Shown here: piece by piece, positions 1 to 13,575 of the stretch
Layout: every line of letters starts with the position of its first letter
How positions within the stretch are numbered: the stretch's first letter is position 1
Assembly: GCA_946479475.1 (NCBI GenBank)
Contig: CAMLGG010000130.1
Span: forward strand, 1 to 14,517
Direction of reading: 5' to 3'
DNA length: 14,517 nucleotides
From: an uncultured Ideonella sp.
GTDB taxonomy: Bacteria > Pseudomonadota > Gammaproteobacteria > Burkholderiales > Burkholderiaceae
The notes under the pieces: model-generated
Seen by the model: only the letters and a program-made list of their open reading frames with translations
Database searches by the model: none
What the model was told of the DNA's origin: nothing
Made by a program: the position numbers and the translations under genes

Positions 1-1
1 G

Positions 2-691
2 TTCCGCGGCAACCGGCTGCACCACAGCCGCTACGGCACGCACTACATGAACTCCTACCACAACCTGTGGGAGGACAACGAGAGCTACCTGAACCGCGGC
101 GGCCTGGCGCTGATGGAGGTGCGCGACCAGGTCGTGCGCAACAACCGCGCCTGGGGCAACACCGACCACGGGATCATGCTGCGCACCCTGCAGGATTCGG
201 TGGTCGAGAACAACGTCGTCGCCGGCAACGGCCGCGGCTTCTTCATCTACGACGTCGAGTACGCGCAGCTCAAGGGCAACCTGGTGGTGGGCAACCAGGT
301 CGGCGTCCACCTCTCGGCCGGCTCGACGCGCAACCTGGTCGACGGCAACGATTTCATCGGCAACCGCGAGCAGGTGCGCTACGTGGGCGCACGCGACGAG
401 ACCTGGGGCGGCGCCCTGGGCAACCACTGGGGCAACTACCTCGGCTGGGACCGCGACGGCAACGGCCGGGGCGACGTCCGCTACGAGGCCAACGACGTGG
501 TCGACCGGCTGCTGTGGCAGCACCCGGCTGCGCGGCTGCTGATGGCGAGCCCGGCCGTGCAGGCGCTTCGCCTGGTCGGCCAGCAGTTCCCGGTGCTGCG
601 CGTGCCGAGCGTGGTGGACCCTGCGCCGCGCATGCAGCCGGAACACCGGCAATGGAGTGAATGGAATGGAAAGCAGGCAGGCGGGCGCTGA
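2..691 (+). CDS. nosD: NosD, periplasmic copper-site maturation protein (3' part)
   Basis: The gene is cut by the left edge; the reading frame is open from base 2 and gives the last 229 residues, ending at TGA 689-691. NosD is a periplasmic right-handed beta-helix protein that works with the NosFY transporter in building the Cu-S cluster of nitrous oxide reductase NosZ. Seen here are beta-helix turns rich in Asn and Gly (repeated NN/GN steps such as VVENNVVAGNGRGF), an HYMNS segment typical of the family, then the conserved GNHWGNYLGWDRDGNG stretch and a C-terminal tail with LVGQQFPVLR and VVDPAPRM. The next gene, nosF, starts inside its last codons, so translation is probably coupled. The signal peptide and the start lie outside the window. 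Identity is secure from both sequence and neighbours. Confidence 0.95.
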   Translation, partial: FRGNRLHHSRYGTHYMNSYHNLWEDNESYLNRGGLALMEVRDQVVRNNRAWGNTDHGIMLRTLQDSVVENNVVAGNGRGFFIYDVEYAQLKGNLVVGNQVGVHLSAGSTRNLVDGNDFIGNREQVRYVGARDETWGGALGNHWGNYLGWDRDGNGRGDVRYEANDVVDRLLWQHPAARLLMASPAVQALRLVGQQFPVLRVPSVVDPAPRMQPEHRQWSEWNGKQAGGR

Positions 692-1604
692 CGCTGCGGC
701 GATCTCGCTGCGTGGCGTGGCCAAGCACTACGGCGCCGTGCGCGCGGTCGACGGTGTCGACCTGGACATCGGCCATGGCGAGGTCTTCGGCCTCATCGGG
801 CACAACGGCGCGGGCAAGAGCACGCTGTTCAAGATGATGCTCGGGCTGATCTCGCCCACGGCGGGCGAGGTGCGCGTGCTCGGCTGCCCGGTGGCCGGCG
901 TGCAGGCGCGCGAGGTGCGCCGATCCATCGGCTACCTGCCCGAGAACGTGGTGCTCTACGACAACCTGAACGGCCTGGAGACGCTGCGCTTCATGGCGCA
1001 GCTCAAGGGCGTGCCGGCCGCTGCTTGCGGGCCCGCGCTGGAGCGCGTGGGCCTCGACGGCGCGGCGGCGAAGCGGCCGGTGCGGGAGTACAGCAAGGGC
1101 ATGCGCCAGCGCCTCGGCTTCGCGCAGGCCTTGCTCGGGCGGCCGCGGGTGCTCTTCCTCGACGAGCCGACGACGGGCCTGGATCCGGACGCGATCCACG
1201 CCTTCTACGCCACGCTCGGCGAGCTGCGCGCGCAGGGCGTGACGATGGTGCTGAGCTCGCACATCCTGGCCGAGCTGCAGCAGCGGGTCGACCGGCTGGC
1301 GATCCTGGCCTCGGGCAAGGTGCAGGCGGTGGGCAGCGTGCAGGGCCTGCGCGAGCGCGCGGCGCTGCCGCTGAAGCTGGAGCTGCACAGCACCGAATCG
1401 GGCGCGGTGGTGGTGCGCAGCGTGCTGGCCTCGATGCCCGTGGCGCGGGCGGACTGGCAGGGCCACCGCGTGATCGCGCACTTCCCGCGCGAGGCCAAGA
1501 TGACGCTGCTGGCGGCCGTCTCCGGCCTGGGCAGCGCGGTGCTCGACCTGCAGATCCACGAGCCTTCGCTCGAAGACGTGTTCTTCGGCCTGGGCGGAGC
1601 CTGA
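666..1604 (+). CDS. nosF: NosF, ABC transporter ATP-binding subunit
   Basis: Cytoplasmic ATPase of the NosDFY complex, which powers delivery of a sulfur species (and probably supports copper handling) for NosZ cluster assembly. Counting from ATG 666 (312 residues), the Walker A GHNGAGKST is at 45-53, the ABC signature EYSKGMRQR at 141-149, Walker B RVLFLDEPTTGLD at 161-173 and the H-loop His at 199. The Q-loop region reads YLPEN, with Glu in place of Gln, as in many gliding/Nos-type ATPases. I chose ATG 666 because GGAG at 654-657 sits 8 bases upstream; a GTG at 657 would add three residues but overlaps that ribosome site. It overlaps nosD by 26 bases and is followed by nosY after 2 bases. 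Length is normal for the family. Confidence 0.95.
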   Translation: MESRQAGADAAAISLRGVAKHYGAVRAVDGVDLDIGHGEVFGLIGHNGAGKSTLFKMMLGLISPTAGEVRVLGCPVAGVQAREVRRSIGYLPENVVLYDNLNGLETLRFMAQLKGVPAAACGPALERVGLDGAAAKRPVREYSKGMRQRLGFAQALLGRPRVLFLDEPTTGLDPDAIHAFYATLGELRAQGVTMVLSSHILAELQQRVDRLAILASGKVQAVGSVQGLRERAALPLKLELHSTESGAVVVRSVLASMPVARADWQGHRVIAHFPREAKMTLLAAVSGLGSAVLDLQIHEPSLEDVFFGLGGA

Positions 1605-1606
1605 GC

Positions 1607-2422
1607 ATGGACGCCCGCCAGATCCTCACCGTCGCGCTGAAGGAGCTGCGAGACAGGCTGCGCAACCGCTGGGTGCTGGCGGTGGCGCTGGTCTTCACCG
1701 TCTTCGCCCTCGTCATCGCCTACTTCGGCGGCGCGCAGCAGGGCGCGGTCGGCCTGCGCTCGATCGAGTTCACCATCACCAGCCTGGTCAGCCTGGTGAT
1801 CTACCTCATCCCGCTCATCGCGCTGCTGCTGGGCTTCGACGCGATCGTCGGCGAGCGCGAACGCGGCTCGCTGGACCTGCTGCTCGCCCTGCCCATCACG
1901 CGGCTGGAACTGCTGCTCGGCAAGTACCTCGGCCTGGCCGCGGCGCTGAGCCTTTCGACGCTCACCGGCTTCGGCCTGGTGGCGGTGGCCCTGGCGACGC
2001 AGGTGGGCAGCGATGGGCTGGCCGCCTATGCCGGCTTCATGGCGAGCTCGGTGCTTCTGGGCCTGGCCTTCCTCAGCCTGGCGGTGATGCTCTCGGTCTT
2101 CGCCGCGGACCGCACGCGCGCCTCGGGCATGGCCATCGCGCTGTGGTTCTTCTTCGTGCTGGTGTTCGACCTGCTGCTGCTCGGCCTGCTGGTGGTCAGC
2201 GGCGGGCGCGTCGGCAGCGACTGGTTCCCCTACACGCTGCTGCTGAACCCGGCCGACGTGTTCCGCATCATGAACGTCTTCTCGCTCGACGACGTGCGCA
2301 GCCTCTACGGGCTGACCAGCATCGTGCCGCACGCGCTTGCCAAGCCCTGGCTGATGGGCCTGGTGATGCTCGGCTGGATCGTCGCGCCCCTGTCCATCGC
2401 CACCTGGAGATTCCGGCCATGA
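1607..2422 (+). CDS. nosY: NosY, ABC transporter permease
   Basis: Inner-membrane permease partner of NosF, contacting periplasmic NosD. The 271-residue product shows six hydrophobic segments at roughly 22-40, 57-77, 106-131, 142-165, 173-197 and 246-266. An amphipathic basic N-terminus (KELRDRLRNRW) precedes the first, and the cytoplasmic loop FDAIVGERERGSLDLLLALP after segment 2 is the hallmark of ABC-2-type permeases of this group. The motif LNPADVFRIMNVFS near 213-226 is typical of NosY. The ATG lies 2 bases after the nosF stop, with GGAG at 1596-1599 (7-base spacer) inside nosF. Its stop overlaps the nosL start in ATGA. Full length, nothing broken. Confidence 0.95.
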   Translation: MDARQILTVALKELRDRLRNRWVLAVALVFTVFALVIAYFGGAQQGAVGLRSIEFTITSLVSLVIYLIPLIALLLGFDAIVGERERGSLDLLLALPITRLELLLGKYLGLAAALSLSTLTGFGLVAVALATQVGSDGLAAYAGFMASSVLLGLAFLSLAVMLSVFAADRTRASGMAIALWFFFVLVFDLLLLGLLVVSGGRVGSDWFPYTLLLNPADVFRIMNVFSLDDVRSLYGLTSIVPHALAKPWLMGLVMLGWIVAPLSIATWRFRP

Positions 2423-2949
2423 CCCCCGACCGCCGCCGCCTGTTGTTCGCGGCCTGCGCCGCCCCGCTTGCCACCCTGTTCACCGGCTGCGATCGCGGCG
2501 ATGCGAAGGTCGCCCTGAAGCCCGCCGAGATCGTGCCCGGCACCACCTGCGACCTGGACGGCATGCTGCTCGCCGACTATCCCGGCCCCAAGGCGCAGAT
2601 CCACTACGTGGGCGCGGCCGCGCCGGTCTTCTGCTGCGACACGGTGGAGCTGTTCTCGCTGCTGCTCAAACCCGAGCAGGTGCGGCCGGTGGCCGCGGCC
2701 TACGTGCAGGACATGGCCCTGGCGGACTGGGAGCAGCCGCGCGGCCACTGGATCGATGCGAGGACCAGCTTCTACGTGGTGGGCAGCAAGCGCGATGGCT
2801 CCATGGGGCCGACCTTCGCGAGCTTCGCCCAGGAGTCCTCCGCGAAGGATTTCGCGGGCCGTCACGGCGGCAAGGTGCTTCGCTTTGCGGACATCACGCC
2901 GGAGATGGCAGACCTCAGCGGCGGGGCTCAGCACGACACGCGGATGTAG
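2419..2949 (+). CDS. nosL: NosL, copper-binding lipoprotein of the nos operon
   Basis: NosL is an outer-membrane or periplasmic Cu(I) chaperone that supplies copper to the NosZ assembly machinery. The 176-residue product has an Arg-rich n-region (DRRR), a short hydrophobic stretch and a lipobox-like LFTG-C24; Phe at -3 is less usual than Leu but a lipoprotein is still the best reading. Conserved family features are C44-DLDGM49, DYPGPKAQIHY at 53-63, CCDT at 72-75, M99, H110-W111 and GSMGP at 127-131. The Cys, Met and His in these motifs are the likely copper ligands, though I cannot say which are used. GGAG at 2406-2409 lies 9 bases before ATG 2419, which overlaps the nosY stop by 4 bases. 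No nosX/apbE gene follows; the operon ends here, facing a NarL-type gene. Confidence 0.95.
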   Translation: MTPDRRRLLFAACAAPLATLFTGCDRGDAKVALKPAEIVPGTTCDLDGMLLADYPGPKAQIHYVGAAAPVFCCDTVELFSLLLKPEQVRPVAAAYVQDMALADWEQPRGHWIDARTSFYVVGSKRDGSMGPTFASFAQESSAKDFAGRHGGKVLRFADITPEMADLSGGAQHDTRM

Positions 2950-2962
2950 CCGCCTGCCCCGG

Positions 2963-3644: not shown

Positions 3645-5504
3645 TCAGGCCTGCACGGCCTCGGGCTCGGGCTCGACGCTCAGCACCACGCGCGTCCCCT
3701 GCCCCGGCGCCGATTGCCACTGCACCTGGGCGCCGATGCGTGACGCCCGCTCGCGCATGATGCGCAGGCCCACGTGGCCCTCGCCGGCGTCCGCCGCGGG
3801 ATCGAAGCCGCGGCCGTCGTCCTCGACCTCGAAGCGCCAGCCCGGCCCGCGATGCACCTTGAGCCGCACCTGCGTGGCGTGGGCGTGCTTGCGGACGTTC
3901 CACAACGCCTCCTGCACCACGTGCAGCACCTGCACCTGCACGTCCTGCGGCAGCGGGATGCCGTCGCCCTCGACCTGCAACGTCGCGTCGATGCCGGCCT
4001 GGTGGCGGAACTTCTGCAGCGTGGTGGCCAGCGCCTGGGTGATGTCCTCGACGTCGGTGCGGGTGCGAAAGTGCAGCAGCAGCTCGCGCACGTCGCCATA
4101 GCACTCGCGCACGCCGGCATCGAGCTCGTCGACGATGCGGTCTTCCGCCGCCTCGTCGGCCTTGCGGCGCGCGCCGCGCAGCAGCTGCACCTGGATCTTC
4201 AGGAAGGCCAGCGACTGCGCGATGGAGTCGTGCAGCTCGCGCGCCAGCAGCGTGCGCTCGGCCGCGATGGCCGCCTCCTTCTCGGCGGCGGCCACGCGCA
4301 GGCTCTCCATGCCGCCGGCGAGGTGGCTGGCCACGATCTCCAGCAGCGAACGGATCTCCTCCGAGGGCTCGATGGCTTCGCGCCAGAAGCAGTCGATCTC
4401 GCCCAGCAGGCGCTGGTGAAGCCGCACCGGCACGGTCATCACCGTGGCGAAGCCCGCCTGGTGGCAGTACGGCAGGCCGGCATCGGTGACCGGGTGGATG
4501 GCGATGCTCCTGGGCGCGGCGCCCGCCACCGCCGGCAGGCCGCAATGGCAGGCCTTGGAGGCGATGCAGTGCTCGGCCTCGGCCATCGCCGGCGGAAGGC
4601 CGTCGTGGCCCAGCAGCATGAAGCGCTCGCCCGCCTCGCCCACCCAGCGAACGGCCACCGCATCGGCGCCGGCCAGCGGGCGGGCCTGGCGCGCCACGCC
4701 GCGGGCCAGCGCGGGCAGGTCCTCCGCCCCGGCGACCACGTTGCTCAGCTCGTACAGGCCGGCCAGCCGCTCGCGCTTGAGCTCCAGGCTCGCGGTCTTC
4801 TCCGCGATGCGGCTCTCCAGGCTGCGGTACAGCGCCTGCAGCCGCGCGGCCATGGCGTTGAAGCCGCCGCCGAGCTGGCCGAATTCGTCCTGCCGCGAGT
4901 CATCGACGCGGGCCTCGAAATCGCCGGCGCGAACCTGGTCCACGGCGGCGGCCAGGCGCTTGAGGGGATCGAGCACCAGCAGGTGCGTCGCATACATCAC
5001 CAGCACCGCGCCGCCCACCGCCAGGCCGATCATCGTGAGCTGGAAGCCGCGCTGCAGGCTCGTCCAGTACGACAGCCTCTCCTCGATCGCGGAGACGAAG
5101 GTGTCGACGTGCTGGACCATCTTCCCGACCTGGGTGAAGTCGGCCGCCTCGCGGCGCAGGACCGCAGCGCGCACGCCGGCCCAATCCGCCTGCACGTCGG
5201 CGAAGGCCTCGCGCACCTCGCCGTGCCAGGGCACGAACAGCGGCCGCGCCGGGTCTCCGTGGCGCAGCAATGCAAGCGTCGCATCCATCTGCTCGATCCG
5301 GGCGCCCAGGGGCGCGCCGTCGACGGTGCTTTCGGCCGCCAGCCGCCAGCTCATCATCCGCAGCCGTCCGGCCTCGTTGACCGCCGCCGCGCCGCCCTCG
5401 AGCTGCCAGGTGACCCACAGCGTGAAGGCGATCGAGACCAGCGCGACCGACAGGAAGGCCGCGCCGGTCGCGACGAGCTTGGAGGCGAGCGTCCAGGTGC
5501 GCAT
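3645..5504 (-). CDS. NarX/NarQ-type nitrate/nitrite sensor histidine kinase
   Basis: Membrane histidine kinase of 619 residues. TM1 is at about 11-33 and TM2 at about 155-178, enclosing a periplasmic domain that starts with NEAGRLRMMSWRL (43-55). This matches the P-box of NarX/NarQ, whose Arg binds nitrate between the helices of the dimer. A HAMP domain follows (about 175-230), a coiled segment, a GAF-like central region with a Cys cluster (C313, C319, C321, then C347 and C372), the HisKA_3 phospho-His H425 in ARELHDSIAQ, N536 in the N-box (EALWNVRKHA), the G1 box DDGRGF at 562-567 and G2 GHVGL at 576-580. All catalytic residues are present. The start is the ATG after an upstream segment with no clear ribosome site. 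Its partner regulator lies 16 bases downstream. Whether it is strictly NarX or NarQ cannot be told from sequence alone. Confidence 0.9.
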   Translation of the reverse strand: MRTWTLASKLVATGAAFLSVALVSIAFTLWVTWQLEGGAAAVNEAGRLRMMSWRLAAESTVDGAPLGARIEQMDATLALLRHGDPARPLFVPWHGEVREAFADVQADWAGVRAAVLRREAADFTQVGKMVQHVDTFVSAIEERLSYWTSLQRGFQLTMIGLAVGGAVLVMYATHLLVLDPLKRLAAAVDQVRAGDFEARVDDSRQDEFGQLGGGFNAMAARLQALYRSLESRIAEKTASLELKRERLAGLYELSNVVAGAEDLPALARGVARQARPLAGADAVAVRWVGEAGERFMLLGHDGLPPAMAEAEHCIASKACHCGLPAVAGAAPRSIAIHPVTDAGLPYCHQAGFATVMTVPVRLHQRLLGEIDCFWREAIEPSEEIRSLLEIVASHLAGGMESLRVAAAEKEAAIAAERTLLARELHDSIAQSLAFLKIQVQLLRGARRKADEAAEDRIVDELDAGVRECYGDVRELLLHFRTRTDVEDITQALATTLQKFRHQAGIDATLQVEGDGIPLPQDVQVQVLHVVQEALWNVRKHAHATQVRLKVHRGPGWRFEVEDDGRGFDPAADAGEGHVGLRIMRERASRIGAQVQWQSAPGQGTRVVLSVEPEPEAVQA

Positions 5505-5547: not shown

Positions 5548-7248
<1,701 letters not shown>

Positions 7249-7296
7249 GCCGCCACCATAGCAAGCGGCGAGCCGGCCGGGCCCGATGCAAGCCGA

Positions 7297-7605
7297 TCAG
7301 GCCGCGCCCGGGTTCTTCAGGCCCAGCACCTCGATGGGTTCGATGGACGGCGGGCCGGCGAAGAGCTCCGGCGCCCGGGCCATCAGCGCCTGCGCGATGG
7401 GGCCGGTGAGGTGGGCCTGGCGGCCGGCCTCGTCGTGGAAGGCGTCGAAGACGCCGAAGGTCGTGGGCGACAGCTTCAGGGCGAACCAGATCGGCGTGGC
7501 GGGTTCGTCGCGCGCCATGGCCAGCGCGGCCTGGAGGAAGCGGGCGACCTCGTCCTCCTTGCCGGGCTGGGCTTCGAGGCGGGCAAACAGCGCGAGCTTG
7601 ATCAT
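7297..7605 (-). CDS. ABM-fold putative quinol monooxygenase
   Basis: A 102-residue protein of the antibiotic-biosynthesis-monooxygenase (ABM, dimeric alpha/beta-barrel) fold. Seen are the N-terminal strand IKLALFARLEAQPGKEDEV, a helix with FLQAALAMARDEPAT, the strand PIWFALKLSPTTFGVFDAFHDEAGRQAHL and a C-terminal LFAGPPSIEPIEVLGLK, all typical of YgiN-like small oxygenases or their relatives. The substrate is unknown; the group includes quinol and anthrone oxygenases and many uncharacterised stress proteins. ATG 7605 has an excellent AAGGAG ribosome site 7-8 bases upstream. The frame stays open far upstream, but that extension would run antisense through the neighbouring regulator and is rejected. 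It is divergent from the GlxA-type regulator, with 111 bases between starts, so the regulator may control it. Confidence 0.85.
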   Translation of the reverse strand: MIKLALFARLEAQPGKEDEVARFLQAALAMARDEPATPIWFALKLSPTTFGVFDAFHDEAGRQAHLTGPIAQALMARAPELFAGPPSIEPIEVLGLKNPGAA

Positions 7606-7681
7606 CGAATCTCTCCTTGGGTGGGGGTTCGTCGGCATTCCCGACGGCCGCCAGTGTGGTCGCGCCCGCCCTTCGGGGCCA

Positions 7682-7709
7682 TTGTCGTGAATGACAACTT
7701 CGATATCAT
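7682..7709 (+). promoter_or_regulatory. sigma70-like promoter and inverted repeat before the GlxA-type regulator
   Basis: TTGTCG (7682-7687) and TATCAT (7704-7709), separated by 16 bases, resemble a sigma70 -35/-10 pair directing transcription rightwards. The -35 box overlaps a perfect inverted repeat TTGTC-N6-GACAA (7682-7697), a good candidate operator. The expected transcription start, about 7 bases after the -10 box, falls at or next to ATG 7717, so the regulator may be translated from a leaderless mRNA. A second, weaker repeat, GTCGG-N5-CCGAC (7631-7645), lies nearer the divergent monooxygenase gene. No equally good promoter is visible for that gene. Confidence 0.45.
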
Positions 7710-7716
7710 TTGCGCC

Positions 7717-8676
7717 ATGCAGCTCGCGGTGCTTGCCATCGATGGCGTGTTCGACACCGGCCTGGCCGCGGTGATGGACACCTTCGCCACCGCCAACGAG
7801 CTCGCGGCCGCGCAGGGCCTGAAGATCCCGCGCTTCGAGGCGGCCGTGGTCGGCGTGCGGCGGCGCGTCCGCACGGCCCTGGGCCTTCAGGTGCCGGTGC
7901 AGCCTGCGGCCTCGGTGGCCCGGCCCGACTGGGTGGTGCTGCCCGCGCCGGGCACCAAGATGCCCGACACCCTGCTGCCCGCGCTGGCCCGGCGGGACAC
8001 GCGCGACGCCGTCTCGGCACTGCAGGCCTGGCATGCCGGCGGCGCCCGCGTGGCGGCGGCGTGCATCGGCGGCTTCCTGCTGGCCGAGTCGGGCCTGCTC
8101 GACGGCGAGGAGGCCACCACCACCTGGTGGCTGGGGCCGCTGTTCCGCCAGCGCTATCCGGCCGTGAAGCTGGACGAGTCCCGCATGCTCGTGCCCTCGG
8201 GCGACTTCGTCACCGCCGGCGCGGCCATCGGCCACCTCGATCTCGCGCTGTGGCTGGTGCGCCAGGCCAGTCCCGAACTGGCCGCGGTGGTGGCGCGCTA
8301 CCTGTTGGTCGATGCGCGGCCTTCACAGGCGGCCTACATGATCCCGGACCATCTCGCGCATGCCGACCCGCTGGTGCAGCGCTTCGAGCGCTGGGCGCGG
8401 GCGCGGCTGGACCAGGGCTTCTCGCTGGACGCCGCGGCCAATGCACTGGCCACGAGCAAGCGCACCCTGCAACGGCGCCTGGAGGCGGTCCTGGGCAAGT
8501 CGCCGCTGGCCTACTTCCAGGACCTGCGGGTCGAGCGCGCGGTGCACCTGCTGCGCACCACCCCGGCCGACATCGAGGCCATCGCGGCCGAGGTCGGCTA
8601 CGCGGACGGCGTCACGCTGCGCAGCCTGCTGCGCAAGCGGCTGGGCCGCGGCGTGCGCGAGCTGCGGGCCCGCTGA
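7717..8676 (+). CDS. GlxA-family AraC-type transcriptional regulator
   Basis: Regulator of 319 residues with two domains. Residues 1-190 form a DJ-1/PfpI-like amidotransferase-fold domain: start AVLAIDGVFDTGLAAVMDTF, nucleophile-elbow Cys C116 in VAAACIGGFLLAESGLL, the TTWW motif at 135-138 and SGDFVTAGAAIGHLDLAL at 161-178. In GlxA regulators this domain senses an effector rather than acting as a protease. Residues about 225-316 carry the AraC double helix-turn-helix, with LDAAANALATSKRTLQRRL (first HTH) and IEAIAAEVGYADGVTLRSLLRKRLG (second HTH). ATG 7717 was chosen because the protein begins exactly where family members do; there is no Shine-Dalgarno sequence before it. It is divergent from the ABM protein gene, a likely target. 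Its stop lies one base from the end of the convergent small gene. Confidence 0.9.
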   Translation: MQLAVLAIDGVFDTGLAAVMDTFATANELAAAQGLKIPRFEAAVVGVRRRVRTALGLQVPVQPAASVARPDWVVLPAPGTKMPDTLLPALARRDTRDAVSALQAWHAGGARVAAACIGGFLLAESGLLDGEEATTTWWLGPLFRQRYPAVKLDESRMLVPSGDFVTAGAAIGHLDLALWLVRQASPELAAVVARYLLVDARPSQAAYMIPDHLAHADPLVQRFERWARARLDQGFSLDAAANALATSKRTLQRRLEAVLGKSPLAYFQDLRVERAVHLLRTTPADIEAIAAEVGYADGVTLRSLLRKRLGRGVRELRAR

Positions 8677-9664: not shown

Positions 9665-10861
9665 TCAGCGCCTCGCTGTCCGCGACTCCAGCCAGCCCTG
9701 CAGCCGCGCGACGCCGTCGTCCAGCCGGGCCGGATCGCAGGCATAGCACCAGCGCACGAAGCCCTCCCCCTCGGGCCCGAAGGCGCTGCCGGGCGCCAGG
9801 CCCAGGCGGGCCTCGTGCACCAGGCGCTTGCACAGCGCGAGGCTGTCGTCCGCGCCGGGCAGCGAGAAGAACACGTACATCGCGCCGGGTGGCGGCTGCA
9901 CCTGGACGCCCGGCAGGGCCGACAGGGCGGCGACGAGGTGGTCGCGCGAGGCCCGCAGGTCCTTCACGAGCTGCTCGACGAAGGGCTCGCCGTCGCGCAG
10001 CGCCACCAGGCCGGCGCGCTGCACGAACACCGGTGCGCAGGAGGTGTTGTATTCGATGAGCTTGCCCAGGTCGTCCGTCAGCGCCTCGGGCACCACCAGC
10101 CAGCCCAGGCGCCAGCCGGTCATCAGCCAGGCCTTGGAAAAGGAGTTGACGCCGATGACGCGCTCGTCGCGGCCGGCCAGGTCGAGGAAGGACGGCGCGG
10201 TGGGCCGGCCGTCGTCGCCGTAGTGCAGGCGCTCGTAGACCTCGTCCGCGATGATCCAGATGCCGTGGCGGCGGCAGTGCTCCAGCACCGCCTGCTGGTC
10301 GGCGCGGCTCATCACCCAGCCCGTCGGGTTGTTCGGCGAGTTGACCATCAGCGCCCGCGTGCCGGGCGTGAGCGCGGCCAGCAGCGCGGGCAGGTCCAGC
10401 GCCCAGCCTTCGGCGCCGCAGTGCAGCGGCACTGTCTCGACCGAGGCGCCGAGGATCCTGGGCATCTCGACCAGGTTGGGCCACAGGGGCGTGACCGCGA
10501 CCACCCGGTCGCCCGGGCCCACCACGAGCTGGGTGGCCAGCATGAGCGCGCTCACGCCCGAGCTGGTGACGGCGATGTGGCCGGTCTTCGTCGGGCCGTG
10601 CAGCCGGCTCACGTAGCGCGCCAGCTCTTCGCGCAGCGGCGTGATGCCGAGGTTGGGCGAGTAGAAGGTGGCCCCTTCGGCCAGCGCTGCTGCCGCAGCC
10701 TCGCGGATGAAGCCGGGCGTGACGCGGTCGGACTCGCCGAACCAGAACGGCAGCACGTCGGGCAGGCCGAAGCCGGCGTTGGCGACCTCGCGGATCCGCG
10801 AGGGCCTGAGCGCGCGCACGGCATCCCGCGCAGCCGCTTCGAAGGGAGTGTTCGTCGTCAT
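9665..10861 (-). CDS. class I/II PLP-dependent aminotransferase
   Basis: A 398-residue fold-type I aminotransferase of the AspAT/KAT subgroup. Active-site features are all present: N178 in NSPNNPTG (174-181), D206 and Y209 in ADEVYE, Schiff-base lysine K243 in NSFSKAW, phosphate-binding R251 in TGWRLGW, and R370 (FVRWCY), equivalent to the Arg that binds the substrate alpha-carboxylate. YSPNLGITPLREELARY (67-83) is the typical substrate-loop region. The amino-acid substrate cannot be read from sequence. It lies 44 bases after the desulfurase-rhodanese fusion on the same strand, so a role in sulfur amino-acid catabolism, such as cysteine transamination to mercaptopyruvate, is possible but is inference only. 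ATG 10861 fits the family start; its ribosome site is weak. The frame is open far upstream, antisense to the fusion's other frame, which is rejected. Confidence 0.9.
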   Translation of the reverse strand: MTTNTPFEAAARDAVRALRPSRIREVANAGFGLPDVLPFWFGESDRVTPGFIREAAAAALAEGATFYSPNLGITPLREELARYVSRLHGPTKTGHIAVTSSGVSALMLATQLVVGPGDRVVAVTPLWPNLVEMPRILGASVETVPLHCGAEGWALDLPALLAALTPGTRALMVNSPNNPTGWVMSRADQQAVLEHCRRHGIWIIADEVYERLHYGDDGRPTAPSFLDLAGRDERVIGVNSFSKAWLMTGWRLGWLVVPEALTDDLGKLIEYNTSCAPVFVQRAGLVALRDGEPFVEQLVKDLRASRDHLVAALSALPGVQVQPPPGAMYVFFSLPGADDSLALCKRLVHEARLGLAPGSAFGPEGEGFVRWCYACDPARLDDGVARLQGWLESRTARR

Positions 10862-10905: not shown

Positions 10906-12957
10906 TCACTCCCAGGCCGCGAGCCGTCCCTCGTCCTGCGGCGCGGCACCGGCACCGTTCGGCCACAGCGCCAGGCCGCCGGCCAGGCTGTAGGAGCGGG
11001 CGCGGCCGAGGCGCCGCAGCAGGCGCGCGGCCTGCGCACTGCGGTTCCCGCTGCGGCAGAAGAAGACCAGCGGTGTCTCGGCCGGCAGGGCCAGCCAGCC
11101 GGGCAGCGCATCGAGCAGGCGGGACAGCGGAACGGCCTCCCCCTGCAGCGCCCCGCCGCCGCCCAGGCGTTGCTCGTACGGCTCGCGCACGTCGACGAGC
11201 CGCGGCGCGGGCTGCTCGCGCCTCAGCTGCTGCAGGCCCGGCGGGTCCACGGCCACCGAGGACTCGTCGTCCGGCTCGGTCTCCGGCAGGCCCGCGCGCC
11301 ATGCGCAGCGGTGGTCGGGGTCGTGCGACGGGACGATGAGGTCGCCTCGCTCCAGCGCCGGCCATCCCTCGGGCGGAAGCCCGGCCGCCTCGGCGACGAA
11401 CGCCAGGCGTGGGCCGTGGCCATGGTCCAGCACGTAGCCGCCGAGGCGCCCCGCGTGGTGCAGGCGCACGAGGCGCCGTTCGCCCAGGCGCAGCGACTCC
11501 CCGGCTTCCGGCCAGCCCATCGCATCGACGCCGGCGGCCGTGCCGCGCAGGCTCGCCGCGATGGCCGCCGCCTCCTCCGCCGGCGCCCGCGTGTGCAGGA
11601 CCGCCGCCACCGCCAGCTTCTGGCAGCGCAGCCAGGCCGCGAGCCTTTCGGCGATCTCGGGTCGGGGGTCGATCACGACGCAGCGGCCGGTCGCGCGGTC
11701 GGCGACGACGTGGCAGGTGCCGCCGTCGGCGGGCCAGCGAACCACGCCGTCGGCCGTGCGATCCGACGAGGCGACCGGCCCCTCGCAGCTCTCGCGCAGG
11801 GCCTGGCCGCAGGCGCGGATGCGTGCGCAGGCCTCGTCGATGAAGGCCTCGTCGACAGCAGGCCCGAAGGACAGGCGCACGGCCGAGGCGGTGCGCCAGG
11901 CCGGCAGCCCCATGGCCTCCAGCACGTGGCTGGGCTGGGCCCTGGAGGCGCCGCAGGCCGAGCCGCCGCTGACGCGCACGCCGGCCGCGTCGAACAGGTC
12001 CAGCAGCAGCCGCGCACTGCAGCCGGGGACGGAGAAGTTGAGCGTGGTCGGCAGGCAGCGCTCGGTCGGCGCATTGAACTGAAGGCCGGGAAAGGCCTCC
12101 TCCAGCGCCGAGGCGAACCGGGCCCGGTAGGCCGCCAGCGTCTGGGCGGGCCGGAAGCTGCGTCCCTCCTCGATCGCCGAGAAGACCGCCCCCATCGCCG
12201 CGATGCCCGCCATGTTCTCGGTGCCCGAGCGCGCGGCGCCCTCCTGCCCGCCGCCGGCCATCAGCGGCGTGAACGGAGCGCCCTCGCGGACGTACAGCAG
12301 CCCGATGCCCTTGGGGGCATAGAGCTTGTGGCCCGAGAAAGGCGCGTAGTCGATGCCGCGCGCCTGCAGCGCGAGCGGGAGCTTGCCCAGGGCCTGCACG
12401 CTGTCGACCATCCACAGCGCCGGGCTGCCGGCCAGCGCGGCCGCGATGCCGTCGAGGTCGCTCACCACGCCGGTCTCGTTGTTGGCGGCCATGGTGCAGA
12501 CCAGGCCGGCGCGCGGGGCGTGCTCCCGCAGCCAGGCCAGGTCGTGCCGGCCGTCGGCGCCGACGGGGATCGCCAGCACCGGCAGGTCCAGGCCCAGCAG
12601 GGCGTTCCAGTGGCGCAGCGCCTCGGGCACGGCCTTGTGCTCGGTGGCCCCGTGAAGCAGCAGGCGCGGGGCGGCATCGCCGTCCTCGTCCCGCCGCTTC
12701 TTCAGCGCGCTGAGCGCCGACAGCACGGCCGTCTGGATGCCCTCGGTGGCGCCGCTGAGAAAGATCAGGCGGCCGGTGGGCGCCCCCAGGACGCGCCTGG
12801 CGCTGGCACGCGCCGCATCCACCACCGCCTTGGCCCGCAGGCCGGTGCTGTGGATGCTGCTCGGGTTGCCGAACTCGCTCGCCATGGCCGCCAGCGCCGC
12901 GGCCTGGGCCTGCGGAAGCACGGGCGTGGTCGCGTTGGCGTCGAGGTAGATTTCCAT
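10906..12957 (-). CDS. cysteine desulfurase - degenerate MBL - rhodanese fusion
   Basis: A 683-residue three-domain protein. Residues 1-390 are an IscS/NifS-like (group I) cysteine desulfurase: MEIYLDANATTP start, H107 in ATEHK, D185 and Q188 in VDSVQALGK, Schiff-base K211 in SGHKLYAPKGIG, and catalytic C335 in GGSACGASRAQPSHVL. Residues about 400-558 align with persulfide-dioxygenase-type metallo-beta-lactamase domains, but the HxHxDH site reads HTRAPAEE and most other metal ligands are gone, so it should be inactive. Residues about 570-668 are a rhodanese with VDVREP and active-site loop C634-RSGNRS. The likely job is to take sulfur from cysteine as a C335 persulfide and pass it to C634 and then to an acceptor. 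A start at ATG 12957 matches the family and has AAAGG 6 bases upstream. The Lrp-type gene is divergent and an aminotransferase follows. The exact biological acceptor is unknown. Confidence 0.9.
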   Translation of the reverse strand: MEIYLDANATTPVLPQAQAAALAAMASEFGNPSSIHSTGLRAKAVVDAARASARRVLGAPTGRLIFLSGATEGIQTAVLSALSALKKRRDEDGDAAPRLLLHGATEHKAVPEALRHWNALLGLDLPVLAIPVGADGRHDLAWLREHAPRAGLVCTMAANNETGVVSDLDGIAAALAGSPALWMVDSVQALGKLPLALQARGIDYAPFSGHKLYAPKGIGLLYVREGAPFTPLMAGGGQEGAARSGTENMAGIAAMGAVFSAIEEGRSFRPAQTLAAYRARFASALEEAFPGLQFNAPTERCLPTTLNFSVPGCSARLLLDLFDAAGVRVSGGSACGASRAQPSHVLEAMGLPAWRTASAVRLSFGPAVDEAFIDEACARIRACGQALRESCEGPVASSDRTADGVVRWPADGGTCHVVADRATGRCVVIDPRPEIAERLAAWLRCQKLAVAAVLHTRAPAEEAAAIAASLRGTAAGVDAMGWPEAGESLRLGERRLVRLHHAGRLGGYVLDHGHGPRLAFVAEAAGLPPEGWPALERGDLIVPSHDPDHRCAWRAGLPETEPDDESSVAVDPPGLQQLRREQPAPRLVDVREPYEQRLGGGGALQGEAVPLSRLLDALPGWLALPAETPLVFFCRSGNRSAQAARLLRRLGRARSYSLAGGLALWPNGAGAAPQDEGRLAAWE

Positions 12958-13107: not shown

Positions 13108-13575
13108 ATGACCCTGGACACGATCGACAAGAAGCTGCTCGCCATGCTGCAGGACGACGCCGAGCTGCAGGTGGCCGAGCTCGCCGAGCGCATCGGCCTG
13201 TCCACCACGCCGTGCTGGCGCCGCGTGCAGCGGCTGAAGGCCGGGGGGGTGATCCGCAAGCAGGTGGCGCTGGTCGACCGCAAGGCGGTCAACGTGCCGG
13301 TGACGGTGTTCGTGACGGTGCGCACGCGCCACCACAACCAGAAGTGGTTCGAAGGCTTTCGGGCGACGGTGGAGGCGATCCCCGAGGTGGTCGAGTTCTA
13401 CCGCATGAGCGGCGAGGTGGATTACCTGCTGCGCGTGGTGGTGCCCGACATCGCCGCCTACGACAGCGTCTACAAGCGGCTGACCTCCAGCCTCGACCTC
13501 TCCGACGTGAGCTCGAGCTTCGCGATGGAGGAGATCAAGTACACCACCGCGCTGCCGCTGGGCTACATCGGCTGA
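13108..13575 (+). CDS. Lrp/AsnC-family regulator, DecR/CyuR-like
   Basis: Transcriptional regulator of 155 residues. A winged helix-turn-helix fills 1-50 (LDTIDKKLLAMLQDDAELQ, then LAERIGLSTTPCWRRVQRL) and an effector-binding RAM domain 65-145 (SGEVDYLLRVVVPDIAAYD). STTPCWRR in the recognition region, the paired His H75-H76 before W80, and the C-terminal SDVSSSFAMEEIKYTTALP closely resemble, from memory, E. coli DecR (CyuR), which senses cysteine and activates cysteine detoxification. That matches its position divergent from a cysteine desulfurase fusion. I start at ATG 13108; a TTG at 13102 would add two residues. GGAGG at 13085-13089 is far from both (12 bases to the TTG, 18 to the ATG), so the start is uncertain by two residues. 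Its last 13 bases overlap the convergent beta-propeller gene. Confidence 0.9.
   Translation: MTLDTIDKKLLAMLQDDAELQVAELAERIGLSTTPCWRRVQRLKAGGVIRKQVALVDRKAVNVPVTVFVTVRTRHHNQKWFEGFRATVEAIPEVVEFYRMSGEVDYLLRVVVPDIAAYDSVYKRLTSSLDLSDVSSSFAMEEIKYTTALPLGYIG

Follow-up and report, generated by a model that had tools for sequence, protein, structure and literature searches.

What does a protein do that joins a cysteine desulfurase to a rhodanese and holds a decayed third domain between them? The question was raised by a gene in a 14,517-nucleotide stretch (hereafter the window) of contig CAMLGG010000130.1, from an uncultured Ideonella sp. (assembly GCA_946479475.1). The gene lies on the minus strand at 10906..12957, with its ATG at 12957-12955 and its stop, which is included, ending at 10906. 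It is a single uninterrupted frame of 683 residues. The product is probably a second, non-housekeeping desulfurase that passes cysteine sulfur from C335 by way of C634 to a thiol; its fused persulfide dioxygenase (PDO) has decayed, and a separate PDO or PDO-rhodanese fusion (PRF) would oxidise the persulfide. Bacteria have to dispose of surplus cysteine sulfur while keeping toxic sulfide and persulfide from being released, which a chain of desulfurase, PDO and rhodanese could achieve through channelling.

Three parts were distinguished in the frame, all on the minus strand. A NifS/IscS-type cysteine desulfurase (CD) domain takes up about residues 1-390 (11788..12957), a relic PDO domain of the metallo-beta-lactamase (MBL) fold about residues 400-560 (11278..11760, placed by alignments and a fold model) and a rhodanese domain about residues 575-668 (10954..11235). 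The sequence-only reading had described one open frame joining a desulfurase (K211, C335), an MBL-like domain and a rhodanese (C634), and we recovered the same coordinates and residues. K211 (12325..12327) is the pyridoxal phosphate (PLP) lysine and C335 (11953..11955) the catalytic cysteine, which lies in a mobile loop of an aminotransferase-V fold as in group I desulfurases. C634 (11056..11058), in CRSGNRS, occupies the CxxGxR active-site loop of TST-type rhodaneses. The spacing from C335 to C634 is 299.

Pfam gave Aminotran_5 at residues 3-373 (7.8e-52) and Rhodanese at 580-665 (PF00581, 1.3e-8; 35.6 bits, cut-off 22.2), and listed no MBL family between the two even at E≤10. The top desulfurase model was NifS TIGR03402 (2.7e-79), yet the score was under that model's own cut-off, as it was for the NCBIfam desulfurase models listed. 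The start codon is backed by homologues beginning MEIYLDANATTP. The predicted structure of the whole chain had a mean pLDDT of 87. Fold searches with the whole chain matched desulfurases, and a relative searched against viral models matched mostly NifS-like and other PLP enzymes; these matches carry no information on the middle domain. With the NifS/IscS-type desulfurases (TIGR03402 and others) the window protein shares the fold, the PLP lysine and the loop of the catalytic cysteine; it differs from them by its C-terminal fusion and its sub-cut-off NCBIfam scores.

A protein search with residues 385-683 scored 7990 candidates and matched 409 proteins, the best 120 of which were examined. The first two other matches were 79 and 60% identical over 100% of the query. 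Lactamase_B stood beside the rhodanese in 105 of the 120; nearly all of these also had Aminotran_5, mostly within proteins of 740-790 amino acids, so that the domain order for which the sequence-only reading had proposed a search does recur. Lactamase_B was absent from the other 15, the window protein included. Named proteins among the 120 were from Burkholderiales (Roseateles, Pelomonas, Variovorax, Comamonas, Acidovorax and Ideonella). A genome scan, with one genome per species, yielded at least 588 confirmed candidate loci. The best 80 were kept, and all of them carry the fusion, one (L048) being cut off. Almost all of those with a name belong to Burkholderiales; a record labelled Pantoea sp. 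18069 is among the exceptions. Collinear homologues came from independent genomes and metagenomes alike. The desulfurase-PDO-rhodanese architecture is common in Burkholderiales. The sequence-only reading had named no characterised example; in titles and abstracts of open-access papers we found no description of the three-domain chain, a result that does not prove its absence from print.

Three forms were found. The usual one has about 750 amino acids and full PDO ligands, another has a relic middle domain, and a two-domain form has no middle domain. An enlarged set of 317 rows comprised 157 intact, 85 relic and 75 two-domain proteins. The spacing between the desulfurase and rhodanese cysteines was 120-179 in 75 rows, 180-279 in none, 280-359 in 85 and 360-439 in 157. 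For the alignment, the 120 proteins and 80 loci were reduced to 192 rows by removing six identical sequences and two truncated ones, P0016 and L048. Sixteen of 333 sequences were left out of the drift and column analyses because the two cysteine motifs were not both recognised by the script. P0162 and P0181 among these do have both cysteines (CRAGNR), and P0070, P0104 and P0016 are without the N-terminus. No rhodanese loop was found in the other 11, most of which end early. Two of the 11, the fusion-family proteins P0173 (602 aa) and P0215 (514 aa), may have lost or broken their rhodanese; they are truncated, frameshifted or genuinely rhodanese-less.

The two-domain form has a published counterpart. 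According to passages of two papers (PMC8931425, PMC12319549), CD-Rhd from Pseudorhodoferax sp. Leaf274 (WP_056898193.1) is a bifunctional PLP homodimer in which C334 of the desulfurase hands a persulfide to C466 of the rhodanese, which passes it on to roGFP2 or small thiols. The authors rank it as the most efficient of the desulfurases characterised to date; the C466S variant was about tenfold slower with GSH (glutathione) or beta-mercaptoethanol, and the CyReB biosensor was derived from this enzyme. Our comparison rests on other Pseudorhodoferax proteins and not on the Leaf274 sequence itself. Four of them (P0165, P0186, P0196 and P0200; 497-500 aa) have CD domains 73-75% identical to that of the window and CRSGRR at 463-466. 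P0186 and P0196 have C334 and C466 as reported for the Leaf274 enzyme, as do two 501-aa loci (L083 and L084) that also have a divergent Lrp gene. C335 of the window is the counterpart of the published C334 (PMC8931425, in part). In the window protein, too, a same-clade desulfurase precedes a rhodanese with an active loop. However, CD-Rhd has about 500 amino acids and its rhodanese follows directly (spacing 120-179), whereas the window protein has a PDO relic of about 155 amino acids between the same two domains. Since the relay is published for CD-Rhd and the CD domains are this similar, a relay of cysteine sulfur from C335 to C634 and on to a thiol is most likely in the window protein too. 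By this analogy the transfer between the two cysteines that the sequence-only reading had proposed gains support, while its suggested acceptors (cyanide, thiouridine and molybdopterin carriers) found no support in this analysis.

The middle segment of the window protein (155 aa) matched all 157 intact fused PDO segments at E≤1e-3 in BLASTP, the best with 40% identity at E 3e-31, an E-value calculated for this small set. Profiles of the relics matched the PDO part of a free PRF with a probability of 94-97% (E 2.7e-8 and 9.6e-11). Judged by these matches, the MBL domain of the window shares common descent with PDOs. The C-terminal half of the intact relative P0065 aligned with BpPRF (5ve3) through PDO and rhodanese (E 2.2e-22, residues 15-339 of 341), and its PDO part also matched PDOs including ETHE1; the corresponding half of the window protein matched BpPRF significantly in the rhodanese only (5.7e-8). 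The idea that a desulfurase was fused to the remodelled half of a PRF is supported by this relative. As to the window's own second half, the PRF domain order and the rhodanese motif are present, but the PDO active site is not kept. BpPRF (PDB 5ve3/5ve4/5ve5) shares that order, MBL/PDO then rhodanese; it has an intact PDO and no desulfurase, whereas the window protein has a desulfurase and a lost PDO site.

The four key positions of HxHxDH in intact copies read R-P-E-E in the window. In the iron-ligand columns the first triad His has become Arg and the GD Asp has become Glu. The GHT His column holds a gap in two alignments and the His of LHHAG in a third; loss of this second iron-ligand His is likely but alignment-dependent. 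The GRxDF segment of the glutathione site is deleted, and GHDY reads SHDP. In the published enzymes, as given in parts of the respective papers, the metal ligands are His71, His146 and Asp163 in the P. aeruginosa PDO (PMC12856154) and H57, H113 and D130 in that of A. caldus, whose glutathione site includes R139 and Y173 (PMC6060420). ETHE1 and the type I PDOs (PDB 4chl, 4ysb) have an MBL fold homologous to that of the intact relatives and, through them, of the window. Unlike them, the window protein has neither HxHxDH nor the 2-His-1-Asp iron triad, and it lacks the Arg-Asp and Tyr of the glutathione site.

The residues corresponding to K211, C335, C634 and the two arginines of the rhodanese loop are invariant across the 192 aligned rows, while the six PDO residues examined are complete in 152 rows and incomplete in 40, including the window. 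Intact rows keep the GHT His and GD Asp in 157/157, GRxDF in 156/157 and the GHDY Tyr in 150/157; HxHxDH is part of the definition of the intact class, and the other four columns were not used to define classes. Only two of the 85 relics, P0040 and L049, keep the iron triad, and the ligand columns hold many different residues across relics. Relic MBL domains drift faster than intact ones at equal desulfurase divergence, and the rhodanese largely does not. At CD identities of 0.70-0.75, 0.80-0.85 and 0.90-0.95, MBL identity in relic versus intact pairs, which are not independent of each other, was 0.40/0.65, 0.53/0.71 and 0.68/0.83, and rhodanese identity was 0.56/0.62, 0.74/0.71 and 0.83/0.84. 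The pair P0113 (intact) and P0201 (relic), with desulfurases 94% alike, was considered as a very recent loss and dropped as an example. In its C-terminal half P0113 is similar to Variovorax P0094, and this sequence may reflect recombination between relatives or a chimeric contig; it is still counted in tallies and trees.

In the structural model of the window protein the middle segment forms an ordered strand-helix core of the MBL type, with block pLDDT values of 80-96 save for one block at 68. The model is without helix 542-556 and the helices that follow it, which the model of an intact relative has between the MBL core and the rhodanese. A working PDO in the window was rejected on account of the lost ligands and the faster drift. 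What the sequence-only reading had listed as an MBL-like domain is thus a decayed relic in the window, though most relatives keep Lactamase_B, and it is probably a folded, inactive spacer.

The state of the fused dioxygenase was associated with a free PRF-like gene elsewhere in the genome. We searched with the PRF of a Paucibacter genome (L110). A first sample comprised 96 different genomes (48 + 50, two shared), and PRF-like genes were counted at E≤1e-46. They were found in 21/26 relic genomes (two also with an intact fusion), 14/17 two-domain genomes and 7/53 intact-only genomes. Pooled, this is 35/43 relic or two-domain genomes against 7/53 (Fisher p=7.8e-12, kinship ignored). The second sample, 399 genomes drawn evenly across one family, contained 61 fusions. 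At E≤1e-45 a PRF-like gene was present in 10/12 relic, 20/24 two-domain and 4/25 intact genomes and in 131/338 without the fusion; most of those listed span PDO and rhodanese, some PDO only. Relic or two-domain genomes exceeded intact ones (30/36 vs 4/25, p=2.0e-7) and those without the fusion (p=4.5e-7), and intact genomes differed from those without the fusion at p=0.03. The two samples share many genomes and are not independent. Two genomes of the second draw that the script's motif search missed, G171 and G396, received their class from the length of the frame and the range of the match, G171 also from HSHGDH, and most other classes there came from earlier loci or from match range and frame length.

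On a 96-tip desulfurase tree, from which the second copies L060, L062 and L047 had been removed, a Pagel-type comparison favoured dependent over independent evolution of the two traits (likelihood ratio (LR) 22.5, p=1.6e-4), also when loss was made irreversible (LR 24.1, p=2.3e-5). As the two fits give different orders of events, the analysis supports dependence of PDO loss and free PRF but not a direction. The complementary spread of fused and free PDOs fits a shared substrate pool. In two genomes, Roseateles toxinivorans (L046, L060) and Ramlibacter sp. WS9 (L049, L062), a single relic fusion occurs together with a single intact one, and a free PRF-like gene is present as well.

The loss appears to have occurred repeatedly. 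In a FastTree phylogeny of the desulfurase domain the intact/decayed label requires at least 14 changes, seven of them forced by starred branches. A quick maximum-likelihood tree of 131 rows that included two-domain rows required 22 changes for the relic state (10 forced), 22 for absence (9 forced) and 25 for the intact state (6 forced); unclear rows were assigned by hand, P0009, P0040 and L049 as relic and P0052 as intact. Two-domain rows were scattered among three-domain rows. Relics were taken as losses because a relic is hardly the precursor of a working dioxygenase. We suggest that the middle step was inactivated or dropped many times in evolution, mostly where the genome has a similar enzyme elsewhere.

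The following mechanism can be proposed. PLP on K211 would strip sulfur from L-cysteine, leaving alanine, and C335 would carry the sulfur as a persulfide. C634 would take it over and pass it to glutathione or another thiol, giving a low-molecular-weight persulfide or H2S. In the common intact form, the PDO between the two could carry cysteine sulfur to sulfite (with the rhodanese, to thiosulfate) in one polypeptide. PDOs convert GSSH (glutathione persulfide), O2 and water to GSH and sulfite, as stated in part of PMC12856154; the persulfide that the desulfurase of an intact three-domain protein makes is thus most likely oxidised by that protein. Decay of the PDO in the window lineage would leave a relay enzyme working like the Pseudorhodoferax CD-Rhd, and the persulfide would probably be oxidised by a separate PDO or PRF. 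A divergent Lrp-type regulator probably controls the gene, perhaps responding to cysteine. We see slightly better than an even chance for a wider interpretation, that the common form is a complete one-polypeptide pathway of cysteine-sulfur oxidation (desulfurase to rhodanese to PDO; cysteine to alanine and sulfite or thiosulfate) under this type of regulator, and that the window enzyme is a step in a repeated reduction, tied to free PRF, toward the two-domain CD-Rhd biosensor enzyme.

The CD-Rhd relay and the PDO-rhodanese fusion are each already known. Passages of the literature on them mention those fusions and never all three domains together, and the words lactamase and dioxygenase did not occur in the main text of PMC8931425. 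The CD-Rhd enzyme gains an evolutionary setting that the available parts of its two papers (PMC8931425, PMC12319549) do not give, and it becomes directly testable whether a fused PDO and a free PRF handle one and the same flux.

Several observations weigh against the decayed-dioxygenase relay and its link to a free PRF. The free gene was absent from 5/26 relic and 3/17 two-domain genomes of the first sample and present in 7/53 intact ones. The irreversible fit gave a PDO loss rate of 5.8 with free PRF and 0.10 without it, and the reversible fit, some of whose rates lay on or close to their bounds, gave the opposite order, with PRF gained after PDO loss; any order of these two events would be an inference, as are the role and ligand of the regulator. 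An independent-pairs test was not significant, with 3 supported pairs (on average 2.2 in the expected direction and 0.1 in the opposite one). Many intact-fusion genomes had weaker free MBL matches (E 1e-13 to 1e-25, mostly 30-40% identical). These matches, which fall under the threshold and could include other PDO types, were common in both intact and loss groups, and thus the association holds for PRF-like genes and not for every possible PDO. At CD identities of 0.70-0.75, rhodanese identity was lower not only in relic (0.56) but also in two-domain pairs (0.51) than in intact ones (0.62). When the tree was rooted on very distant IscS rows the first branches were two-domain, and some two-domain forms may be primitive. 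An Lrp gene is divergent and adjacent in only 7/26 relic loci. Finally, the activities of the window protein and of the fused PDO in its relatives are predicted from sequence, and a free PRF is presumed for the window's own genome, which lies outside the free-PRF samples, as does Ideonella sp. YS5 (P0003), the closest relative that has a name.

Other explanations of the protein were considered. The window may be metagenomic, and a misassembly or, as the sequence-only reading had cautioned, a frameshift could have joined separate genes. The probability of this is negligible, since many independent genomes and metagenomes contain full-length homologues with the same collinear arrangement, among them the first two matches over the whole query, and these exclude a frameshift or chance fusion. 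Another alternative is that the middle domain is repurposed rather than dead, serving as a docking or acceptor-binding module or acting on a different metal or substrate, and so still shaping the output. Its persistence in 85 rows as a domain shortened to a similar extent, instead of deletion throughout, and the ordered MBL-type core of the model would both suit such a role. However, it drifts faster than intact copies while the rhodanese largely does not, its ligand columns vary widely among relics, and it is missing from another 75 relatives in which the two catalytic cysteines are retained. We therefore consider repurposing unlikely.

Somewhat less probable still is a biosynthetic enzyme that donates sulfur to a specific acceptor (tRNA, molybdopterin or an Fe-S carrier) instead of breaking down cysteine and producing persulfide. 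Desulfurase-rhodanese relays serve such pathways elsewhere, according to part of PMC8931425, and a gene family with a TrhO-like representative directly follows the fusion in 17/100 loci, of which 13 have a relic. The window gene has no TrhO next to it, though, and the complete dioxygenase site of the common form would oxidise the sulfur away. The fusion was carried by only 61 of the 399 genomes drawn from one family, and a second desulfurase, 32-33% identical, was present in the three genomes searched, where the fusion is thus not the sole desulfurase. A non-housekeeping relay from C335 to C634 with a decayed dioxygenase is the reading that we prefer.

The regulator is encoded divergently upstream of the fusion, 150 bp from its start (13108..13575, plus strand; 155 aa), and belongs to the Lrp/AsnC family (Pfam AsnC_trans_reg, 4.8e-20). 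The solved structure closest to it is the AsnC-family protein 3i4p (5.3e-60), whose deposited name gives no ligand; cysteine as the ligand is a guess from the adjoining enzyme. An Lrp homologue was divergent within 400 bp of the fusion in 60/100 related loci (38/56 intact, 7/26 relic, 14/17 two-domain and the truncated L048) and adjacent on the same strand in 4 more. When 61 intergenic regions were searched for an Lrp operator common to them, short AT-rich words proved enriched over base shuffles, but no site could be located for the window.

Downstream of the fusion by 44 bp is a class I/II PLP aminotransferase gene (9665..10861, minus strand; PRK06108 subfamily, 398 aa), and co-transcription of the two is possible. 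Matches to this aminotransferase were found in only 2/100 related loci, at 26-27% identity. The TrhO-like genes mentioned above (UPF0176, a rhodanese-containing tRNA uridine hydroxylase) followed 13 relic, 2 intact and 2 two-domain fusions. The representative, L074:8473-9429, is the sole annotated member of the family. At the median these genes overlap the end of the fusion gene by about 7 bp, which suggests translational coupling.

Elsewhere in the window, positions 1-2950 (plus strand) contain nos-type genes for NosD, an ABC-2 permease and NosL. A sensor kinase with PilJ, HAMP, GAF and HisKA_3 domains, which we take to be NarX-like, is encoded at 3645-5504 (minus strand). A frame of 987 amino acids at 5713-8676 (plus strand) has a DJ-1/PfpI plus AraC-type regulator as its C-terminal part, and its true start is probably much further in.

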